From positions 1-33,884 of the forward strand of contig CALVAD010000017.1 of the NCBI GenBank assembly GCA_944325495.1: a stretch of DNA of 33,884 nucleotides, in the 5' to 3' direction. Below are positions 2,443 through 22,059 of the stretch, one piece after another (within the stretch, counting starts at the first letter, position 1; the number at the start of each line of letters is the position of its first letter). The stretch is from an uncultured Bacteroidales bacterium (GTDB lineage: Bacteria; Bacteroidota; Bacteroidia; Bacteroidales; UBA932). A program made the translations under genes and the position numbers. The notes under the pieces are model-generated. The model did not search any database and was not told the origin of the DNA. It worked only from the letters and a program-made list of their open reading frames with translations.

Positions 2443-3645
<1,203 letters not shown>

Positions 3646-3654
3646 GCGGTTACG

Positions 3655-3772
3655 ATGCGGGAGAGGCTGACTGCCTCCGGAGAGGTTCCGCTGCGCTCCA
3701 TCGATGCTGCGCATCGCCCGCTCACTGCCGCGGGCGGCAAGCCTCTCCGGAGGCAGTCAGCCTCTCCCGCAT
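3655..3772. repeat. Long perfect inverted repeat with structured spacer (element 1)
   Basis: Two 31-base arms, 3655-3685 and 3742-3772, are perfect reverse complements. The 56-base spacer can form inner hairpins: CGATGC-TGC-GCATCG near 3702-3716 and CCCGC...GCGGG near 3717-3735. Each left arm in this family consists of 20 variable bases, then CTCCGGAG, then 3 bases. The right arm reaches the last base of the ispG stop codon, and the left arm begins 9 bases after the methyltransferase stop, so the element fills the gap between two convergent genes. It could act as a bidirectional terminator or transcript-end stabiliser. A second element of the same design lies at 21930-22059. Confidence 0.9.
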
Positions 3773-5001
3773 TAAACGGTCTTTTCCGATTCTATCAGTT
3801 CCAGGAGCCTGTCGATGGCTTCGGAGTCGGGGATGTGGCGCAGGACGGGCTCGCCCTTGCGGTAGATGGCCACCTTGCCTCCGCCTTCTCCGACATAGCC
3901 CCAGTCGGCGTCGGCCATCTCGCCGGGACCGTTCACGATGCAGCCCATCACGGCTATCACAACTCCCTTGAGATGCGAAGTGCGCGCCTTGACTTCGGCG
4001 AAGGTCTTCTGGAGGTCGTACATCGTGCGGCCGCAGCCCGGGCAGGCTATGTACTCGGCCTTGTAGAAACGGCGCCGCGCGGCCTGCATTATCTCGTTTG
4101 CCAGATATTCCGACACTCCGGCCTCTGCCGGAATCCCGTCGATTTCATGTTTGAGCAGTTTTGGCCCCCATTCTATCGCCGCGTCGAGCATAGGGTCGCC
4201 CTTGCGACCTTCGGCGAGGTAGCGGGCGACCGGCAGTTCGTTCTCGGGCGGTTCAGTAAGCGAGACCCGGATGGTGTCGCCTATGCCTTCCTGAAGCAGG
4301 GATGCGATGCCGATGCATGACTTGATTCGGCCGCTGTCGCCGCCTCCGGCCTCCGTGACCCCGAGGTGCAGCGGAAAGACGCATCCTTCCTGCCGCATCA
4401 TGCCCGCAAGCTCCCTGTAGGCCCGGGTCATGACCACCGTGTTGCTGGCCTTGAGGGAGACCACGACATTCATGAAATCTGCGTCCATGCACATCCTGAC
4501 CCATTCCATCGCGGCGGTGGCCATGGCGAAGGGCGTGTTGCCGTACTGTTCGGTGATGTAGCGGCCAAGAGAGCCGTGGTTCAGTCCGATGCGTATCGCG
4601 GTGCCGTTGTCGCGGCAGACCTCTATGAGTCTGGAGAACTGGGCGCGCGCCTTGTCGTGGTCTGCGTGGAAGTTGCCGGGATTGATCCTGACCTTCTCCA
4701 CCTCCGGGGCCACGGCTATCGCGGTTTCGGACGAGAAGTGGATGTCGGCGGCCAGGGGGACTTTGCAGCCGCTTTCACGCAGCCGGCGGCGTATCTCCCT
4801 GACATGCGCCACGTCGTTGAGCCCTGGAACCGTGATGCGTATCAGCTGCGCTCCCGCGGCGGCCAGACGCAGGCACTGCGCCGTCGTGGCCTCCACGTCG
4901 GAAGTGTGCGTGTCGCACATCGTCTGTACGGCTATGGGTGCGTCCCCTCCTATGATCAGGGAATCACCTATTCTTACCGGAATTGTCCTGAGTCGTTCCA
5001 T
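3772..5001 (-). CDS. ispG: 4-hydroxy-3-methylbut-2-en-1-yl diphosphate synthase, short form
   Basis: IspG (GcpE) reductively converts methylerythritol cyclodiphosphate to HMBPP in the MEP isoprenoid pathway, using a [4Fe-4S] cluster. The 409-residue protein has the TIM-barrel N-terminus (VQTMCDTHTSDVEAT; VRINPGN; LHLGVTEAGGGDSG) and the cluster domain with CPGC (C320, C323), C354 in MGCIVNGPGE and E361. The C-terminal wording (EYIACPGCGRTMYDL, GEMADADWGYVG) resembles the long, three-domain IspG of Bacteroidetes, Chlamydia and plants, yet only about 70 residues separate TEPPE (250-254) from CPGC, too few for the usual inserted domain. The start overlaps the upstream PorT-like gene by 38 bases. 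Confidence 0.95.
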   Translation of the reverse strand: MERLRTIPVRIGDSLIIGGDAPIAVQTMCDTHTSDVEATTAQCLRLAAAGAQLIRITVPGLNDVAHVREIRRRLRESGCKVPLAADIHFSSETAIAVAPEVEKVRINPGNFHADHDKARAQFSRLIEVCRDNGTAIRIGLNHGSLGRYITEQYGNTPFAMATAAMEWVRMCMDADFMNVVVSLKASNTVVMTRAYRELAGMMRQEGCVFPLHLGVTEAGGGDSGRIKSCIGIASLLQEGIGDTIRVSLTEPPENELPVARYLAEGRKGDPMLDAAIEWGPKLLKHEIDGIPAEAGVSEYLANEIMQAARRRFYKAEYIACPGCGRTMYDLQKTFAEVKARTSHLKGVVIAVMGCIVNGPGEMADADWGYVGEGGGKVAIYRKGEPVLRHIPDSEAIDRLLELIESEKTV

Positions 5002-20970: not shown

Positions 20971-21037
20971 CTGACAGCGGACAGGACAGCCGCAAAGGAG
21001 GGAAAGCCTCCCTTGCGGCTGTCCTGCCCGCTGACGG
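20971..21037. repeat. Long near-perfect hairpin
   Basis: Two arms of about 31 bases (20971-21001 and 21007-21037) pair at about 27 positions around a 5-base loop GAAAG; a core such as CAGGACAGCCGCAA is perfectly matched. It lies about 50 bases beyond the stop of the minus-strand secreted-protein gene, but no U-run follows on either strand, so it is not a canonical terminator. Confidence 0.75.
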
Positions 21038-21929: not shown

Positions 21930-22059
21930 AGCGCCGGACAGGTATATGTCTCCGGAGGGTTTCGCGCTTCGCGCTCATCCCGTCACTCGCTGCACTCGTG
22001 ACACCCGCTATCGGCCGCGGGTGGCCAGACCCTCCGGAGACATATACCTGTCCGGCGCT
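21930..22059. repeat. Long perfect inverted repeat with structured spacer (element 2)
   Basis: Arms 21930-21960 and 22029-22059 are perfect 31-base reverse complements, the same length as in the element at 3655-3772. Both left arms have 20 variable bases, then CTCCGGAG, then 3 bases. Both spacers begin TTC and end AG and share CCCGCT and CCGCGGG in the same order. Inner hairpins GTCAC...GTGAC and CCCGC...GCGGG correspond in place to those of element 1. Here the element is not between convergent gene ends: it lies upstream of the secreted-protein promoter, with no gene close on the other side. Confidence 0.9.

Follow-up and report, generated by a model that had tools for sequence, protein, structure and literature searches.

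A dispersed palindromic repeat family of Bacteroidales, apparently new, with arms probably kept complementary by arm-to-arm DNA copying

Among the described systems closest to the elements reported here, REP/REPIN sequences have a tag of the GTAG/GGAG/CGTC type adjoining the palindrome, and the Rickettsia palindromic elements are bacterial palindromic elements located in frame inside genes. A different kind of precedent is template switching, which in yeast homogenises the arms of inverted repeats and inverts their spacers, as described in an excerpt of PMC8604942. An excerpt of PMC8794818 adds that template switching creates and maintains perfect hairpins whose loops become inverted. The inverted spacers in the excerpts of both papers are short, comprising 2-5 substitutions in yeast and up to 7-8 nt in rRNA (PMC8604942, PMC8794818).

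The window, meaning the whole stretch of 33,884 nt analysed here (positions 1 to 33,884 of contig CALVAD010000017.1, assembly GCA_944325495.1), comes from an uncultured Bacteroidales bacterium and contains two long hairpin elements. From the sequences compared, these elements probably represent a dispersed REP/MITE-like palindromic repeat family of Bacteroidales, apparently new, in which long arms enclose a conserved, structured core of some 47-78 nt, the arms being kept complementary by arm-to-arm copying of DNA.

The two window elements and their family

Element 1 comprises two arms of 31 nt on the plus strand (3655-3685 and 3742-3772), which are 100% complementary and enclose a core of 56 nt (3686-3741). 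In the repeat analysis the left arm consists of 20 variable bases followed by CTCCGGAG and AGG. Two hairpins are recognised in the core by sequence and covariation: P3 (GATGC/GCATC, 3703-3715), which is variable across the family, and P4 (CCCGC/GCGGG, 3717-3734). The P4 loop TGCC (3726-3729) may pair with the tail GGCA (3736-3739), forming a pseudoknot or an alternative hairpin within 3726-3739. An identical core is present in another copy of the same genome (L055, C37:7186-7263). Two convergent genes flank element 1, which fills the space between them. The first is a plus-strand gene with PUA and SAM-methyltransferase domains (2443-3645), presumably RlmI-like, and the second is ispG/gcpE (PF04551) on the minus strand (3772-5001); the stop codon of ispG (3772-3774, minus strand) overlaps element 1 by one base, sharing its first position with the final base of the right arm.

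Element 2, also on the plus strand, has arms of 31 nt at 21930-21960 and 22029-22059 with perfect pairing, which the repeat tool's own extension carries to 36 nt at 94%. Its core of 68 nt (21961-22028) contains P3 (GTCAC/GTGAC, 21982-22002) and P4 (CCCGC/GCGGG, 22004-22021), both identified by sequence. The anatomy given in the original prediction (20 variable bases, CTCCGGAG, 3 bases, and a spacer that begins with TTC, contains CCCGCT and then CCGCGGG and ends with AG) is true of both elements, as is the perfect self-complementarity claimed for their 31-base arms. Chance does not account for these hairpins: folding z-scores for both strands of both copies, relative to shuffles, range from -10.6 to -12.4, and triplet shuffling of 136 kb of sequence from this genome left 0 comparable hairpins, against 45 in the real sequence.

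Eight sites in 136 kb of the same genome carry hairpins of another, plain class (arms of 17-31 bp, loops of 15-24 nt): 20975-21033 in the window; 2984-3054 in L049; 1177-1256 and 1368-1445 in L051; 2460-2528 in L055; 1390-1447 in L072; 3054-3131 in L076; and 1391-1459 in L081. Their loops are partly alike, being of a TTTTCCC type or of a TAGGGT..GCG type, the latter in both orientations.

When 61 genomes of the genus and 149 of the family (the window's own genome in each set) were searched for an exact pattern flanked on either side by CTCCGGAG, the matches outside this genome looked unrelated by eye, and a covariance model was needed. One of those matches (G028) is a long hairpin that lacks the family core. 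The model was built from the four copies of the window's genome with CTCCGGAG on both sides. In this 2.0-Mb genome, assembled in 61 contigs, it has 41 matches at E up to 1, and 40 of them lie below 0.003, which bears out the family proposed from the two elements. Set against these 41 matches, the four places show that CTCCGGAG is no fixed part of the family. The original prediction had left room for a coincidence if no further copies, or only copies with unpaired arms, existed; in this genome there are further copies and their arms are paired. The search of related genomes that it had suggested gave matches in at least 39 of 151 genomes of the same genus (E 0.01), and the genus-wide counts are lower bounds, because a maximum of 30 candidates was scored per genome and the filters were strict. 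The relatives G345 and G319 hold 27 and 41 matches, respectively.

A core pattern that characterises other species occurs at no fewer than 120 loci of named genomes, mostly metagenome assemblies. The 80 titles listed belong to Bacteroidales or Bacteroidia bacteria, Ca. Cryptobacteroides and Ca. Merdivivens, with two from a Rikenellaceae isolate. Arms were measured in these 80 loci, the further ones being BLAST targets only. Five copies cut by the end of the locus were excluded, and 45 of the 75 usable copies have a gapless stem of at least 16 bp; several of the remaining stems are bulged or decayed by eye. L021, from a genome of the window's genus (G233), has flanks identical to those of L186, a contig of Ca. 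Cryptobacteroides caccocaballi, which makes Ca. Cryptobacteroides the probable genus of the window. Above the gathering score, Rfam had 0 matches in the window and matched only tRNA and rRNA in 15 element loci. No description of the family was recognised in limited searches of open-licence papers, which is weak evidence for its being undescribed.

Arm pairing and core orientation

Extraction gave 178 copies; 34 were excluded because their gapless arms fell short of 16 nt, and 144 remained with arms of 16 bp or longer. Arm pairing is perfect in 63 of the 144 (20 of the 36 from the window's genome), and their 3736 arm pairs are divided into 3561 Watson-Crick pairs, 30 G.T, 57 A.C and 88 other mismatches. 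For the 35 copies of the window's genome compared, the two arms of one copy pair at 0.986 over outer positions 13-20, whereas arms taken from different copies pair at 0.367, only 2 of 1190 cross pairs reaching 0.95 or above. The idea that pairing is preserved and sequence is not, first drawn from two copies, thus holds across the genome. At inner positions 1-12 the values for the same genome are 0.955 within and 0.575 between copies, the latter being the cross-copy identity of a stretch near CCTCCGGAGAGG that is loosely common to the copies.

Exceptions are L058, L060 and L062 of the window's genome, which have common arms, and a set of nine G319 copies with the same arms, each on a contig of its own and most of them within a larger repeat extending beyond the arms. 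With these two groups, the earlier argument that the copies of a simple MITE would all have identical terminal repeats does not dispose of mobility. The larger repeat, carrying hairpin and arms, was amplified in G319 (L096/L354, L355-L360, L362 and L367), and L371 has a similar hairpin with perfect arms and lacks the surround of this repeat. Three other copies (L171, L217 and L242) are nested, MITE-like, in longer outer inverted repeats near TTATCCGCAAAATTACCCC, and similar outer repeats are found in L129, L164 and L182.

The rlmI-ispG region is best matched in G345 and G319, where ispG has nucleotide identities of 87% and 84%, respectively. Flank matching gave 35 site-by-genome comparisons, 11 of which were dropped because a usable stem was lacking or the stretch was too short: L003, L054, L073 and L084 in G319; L070, L076 and the empty site of L064 in G345; and L056 and L069 in both genomes. 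For window element 1 no site was matched in G345, and at the corresponding site G319 has another element. Among the 24 comparisons with a usable stem, 12 have arms alignable at 70% identity or more and 12 have unalignable arms, including L080 and L081, which look related by eye. Of the 312 pair positions in the 12 alignable comparisons, 279 are the same; both partners differ at 23 and a single partner at 10. All changes are two-sided in L055 (7/7) and L058 (3/3), and each of the three changes in L075 is single-sided. The double changes comprise 8 transitions and 15 transversions, and therefore most of them are not explained by G-U intermediates. A transversion excess was considered as a signature of template switching and is not claimed, 15 of 23 being not clearly above the flanks, with 1068 transversions and 967 transitions among 2035 changes.

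Core orientation differs between species. There are 14 usable sites shared with G345, from which 12 were chosen for an alignable core and site, and at 5 of these the core is inverted between colinear flanks: L050, L052, L004 (window element 2), L055 and L080. The two omitted sites, L074 and L082, have unalignable arms and the same orientation, which makes the count 5 of 14. Across all usable rows, inversion was called in 10 of 24 comparisons, five of them with unalignable arms. In element 2 the arms are identical to those of G345 at 30 of 30 compared positions and the core is identical at 67 of 68, in reversed orientation. L053 lies some 145 bp away from L050, and its core has kept the same orientation. 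Segments between 31-bp repeats could have been flipped in assembly, although the arms of L080 are imperfect, their longest exact run in G345 being 14 nt. At the G345 site of L070 and L076_1791, which are two neighbouring inverted elements in the window's genome, a single and apparently fused element (L381) was identified, as if a deletion had taken place between neighbours.

Paired arm changes and inverted cores between colinear flanks would both follow from template switching. In the reading that we favour, DNA-level copying would repeatedly rewrite one arm from the other, through template switching in replication (quasipalindrome correction) or a related hairpin or cruciform conversion, and the arms would stay complementary; the same copying event, when it spans the spacer, would leave the core inverted. 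The DNA hairpin maintained by arm-to-arm conversion, one of the roles originally suggested, is on these two observations the best fit. Points against this reading are the unrelated outer arms of copies with identical cores (described below), the unalignable arms in half of the usable comparisons, the bulged or decayed stems in the named genomes, the much shorter spacers inverted in the published cases and the chance of assembly flips. If this is right, a single genome contains some 40 naturally replicated versions of one hairpin whose arms have diverged, and, with both core orientations present in relatives, the effect of template switching on palindromes could readily be studied here. Strong covariation, the usual sign of a selected RNA structure, could then stem from DNA copying alone.

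Other explanations and gene context

A structured RNA under selection, such as a 3' UTR element or a small RNA in which the pairing of the arms, P3, P4 and loop-tail is kept for its work as RNA, is an unlikely explanation that nevertheless accounts for several features. P3, P4 and the contact between P4 loop and tail are conserved, with 96.2% of cells paired in an alignment (A3) of 94 rows, 89 of them distinct, that is biased to the structure of its own model, the loop-tail pairs lying outside that model. Over the 89 distinct rows the covariation score is 0.550, against 0.166 when shuffled and at most 0.110 when slid, and the covariation first read from two copies is upheld. Double changes occur at 21 of the 25 pairs, and the first loop-tail pair is GC in 39 of the distinct rows, UA in 28 and AU in 14. 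This is no proof of RNA selection, because template switching alone yields covariation, and neither can it be counted as proof of RNA function, since template switching also maintains the pairing of P3 and P4. An H-type pseudoknot was considered as well and not retained; the loop-tail pairing covaries, yet an alternative hairpin is equally likely because the spacing between P4 and the tail is one base. At the sites shared with G345 the cores are identical at 766 of 803 positions (95.4%), against 87.2% in the flanks, and this slower change leaves room for an RNA function of the core.

In the arms, A.C pairs exceed G.T pairs (57 against 30), and an RNA from the complementary strand is conceivable because A.C is there G.U. 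However, both types together amount to 87 of the 3736 arm pairs. A structured RNA alone would predict many G-U steps and a fixed orientation, whereas the double changes are mostly transversions and the core is inverted at 5 of the 12 chosen sites. The missing Rfam match is a further point against it.

Gene context was called with a purpose-written gene finder, orthologous sites being pooled, in 133 copies. Of these, 124 are intergenic and 9 are within a predicted gene. The intergenic copies are distributed in convergent gaps (44), co-directional gaps in sense (41) or antisense (28), and divergent gaps (11). The distance to a sense stop codon, measured from the 5' edge of the element, has a median of 18 nt (n=85), and the distance from the 3' edge to an antisense stop codon has a median of 85 nt (n=72), a contrast with p=0.0007 when related sites are pooled. 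This position near gene 3' ends is consistent with an RNA element, but the co-directional gaps, with 41 sense and 28 antisense copies, speak against one. Four predicted genes in named loci (L133, L142, L165 and L184) share one reading frame through the core, giving a peptide of the type NFA...PPVHEATGGHG, and in two others (L161 and L185) the core is read in reverse; none of the six contains internal stops.

A moving core whose arms are made or met at insertion, by inverted target duplication or by insertion into the loop of an existing hairpin, is doubtful. In its favour are three pairs of copies of the window's genome with identical 56-nt cores and unrelated outer arms (mean identity 0.42), a turnover that could reflect either homogenisation of cores between copies or renewal of arms at insertion. 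Plain long hairpins also exist, both in this genome (the eight sites above) and between rlmI and ispG in G418 (L112), where a perfect 30-bp stem was found without the core. The rlmI-ispG region was fetched from 30 loci, 17 of them with both gene ends (one being the window's own). In 12 of the 16 relatives the two genes are separated by just 3-28 bp, which argues against a moving core. The gap contains 127 bp of other sequence in L110, and in G319 and G011 an element with different arms. At site L064 the element is present in the window's genome and G319 and absent from G345, along with some flank; the G345 site is empty and has no arm sequence, again against a moving core. The empty sites at rlmI-ispG and L064 have diverged too far for a target-site duplication to be readable. 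An origin of the arms as copies of other genomic sequence was rejected, a search with 28 arms against the window's genome (E up to 10) giving no second origin. The matches were mainly the two arms themselves, copies sharing arms and weak or partial matches. Three of the partial matches are a coding sequence (L318), a damaged-looking element near a contig end (L319) and a weak match in coding sequence (L320). The common arms of L058, L060 and L062 and those of the nine G319 copies are also against such a core, even if most of the latter lie in the larger repeat.

A variant that we hold to be just as doubtful is a core that is itself a mobile or self-renewing unit, rebuilding its perfectly complementary arms either out of target sequence or through recurrent long template switching. 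If true, each copy would have private arms and a flipping core, and the family would be an invertible palindromic element needing no recombinase site.

An inverton, that is, an invertible DNA switch flipped by a site-specific recombinase, is improbable. The segment lies between inverted repeats and differs in orientation among relatives at 5 of 12 chosen sites, and gut Bacteroidales are, in the excerpted literature, known for invertible promoters. However, the copies have no common long recombination site because the arms vary from site to site, only the inner stretch near CCTCCGGAGAGG being loosely common (0.575), and few copies (11/124) are in divergent gaps.

Most improbable is an intergenic transcription terminator, the transcript-end device of the original prediction: element 1 occupies the whole gap between two convergent genes, and divergent gaps hold just those 11 copies while they make up 66 of the 336 intergenic gaps of at least 30 bp (own and named loci), but a T-rich end (six or more T in the adjoining 10 nt, at either end) was found in only 2 of 37 copies of the window's genome, L155, L162 and L186 come after a T-tailed terminator that looks ordinary by sequence, and 9 of 133 copies are inside a predicted gene.

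Comparison with known systems

The family resembles REP/REPIN sequences with RAYT in being formed by palindromic intergenic repeats with tens of copies per genome. It differs in that the arms vary by copy and in length, four family copies that were folded having 107-130 bp, against 20-40 bp for REP/REPIN in an excerpt of PMC3733652. GGAG is present within CTCCGGAG and absent from the arms of some copies. A Y1 (RAYT) transposase gene was identified over the cut-off in 8 of the 16 genus genomes searched, and four Y1 loci were inspected without finding an element in them. No such gene was found in the three best-studied genomes, namely the window's own (G000, 89% complete), G345 (82%) and G319 (93%), and mobility by RAYT was rejected for this reason.

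MITEs are likewise dispersed and palindromic. The arms of the present family, however, are unrelated between most copies, and terminal repeats are common only within subfamilies, which are L058/L060/L062 and the G319 group, mostly in its larger repeat. The likeness to the Rickettsia palindromic elements is that some copies are in frame inside predicted genes. With the invertons, represented by the invertible promoters of gut Bacteroidales, the family shares inverted repeats and a segment in both orientations, here between species, but it has no common long site and is usually outside divergent gaps.

Template switching, or quasipalindrome correction, presents the same homogenised arms and inverted spacers in the excerpts of PMC8604942 and PMC8794818. 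In comparison with these precedents the family has longer spacers (56-78 nt where the core is inverted), and a single repeat family is affected at many sites at once.
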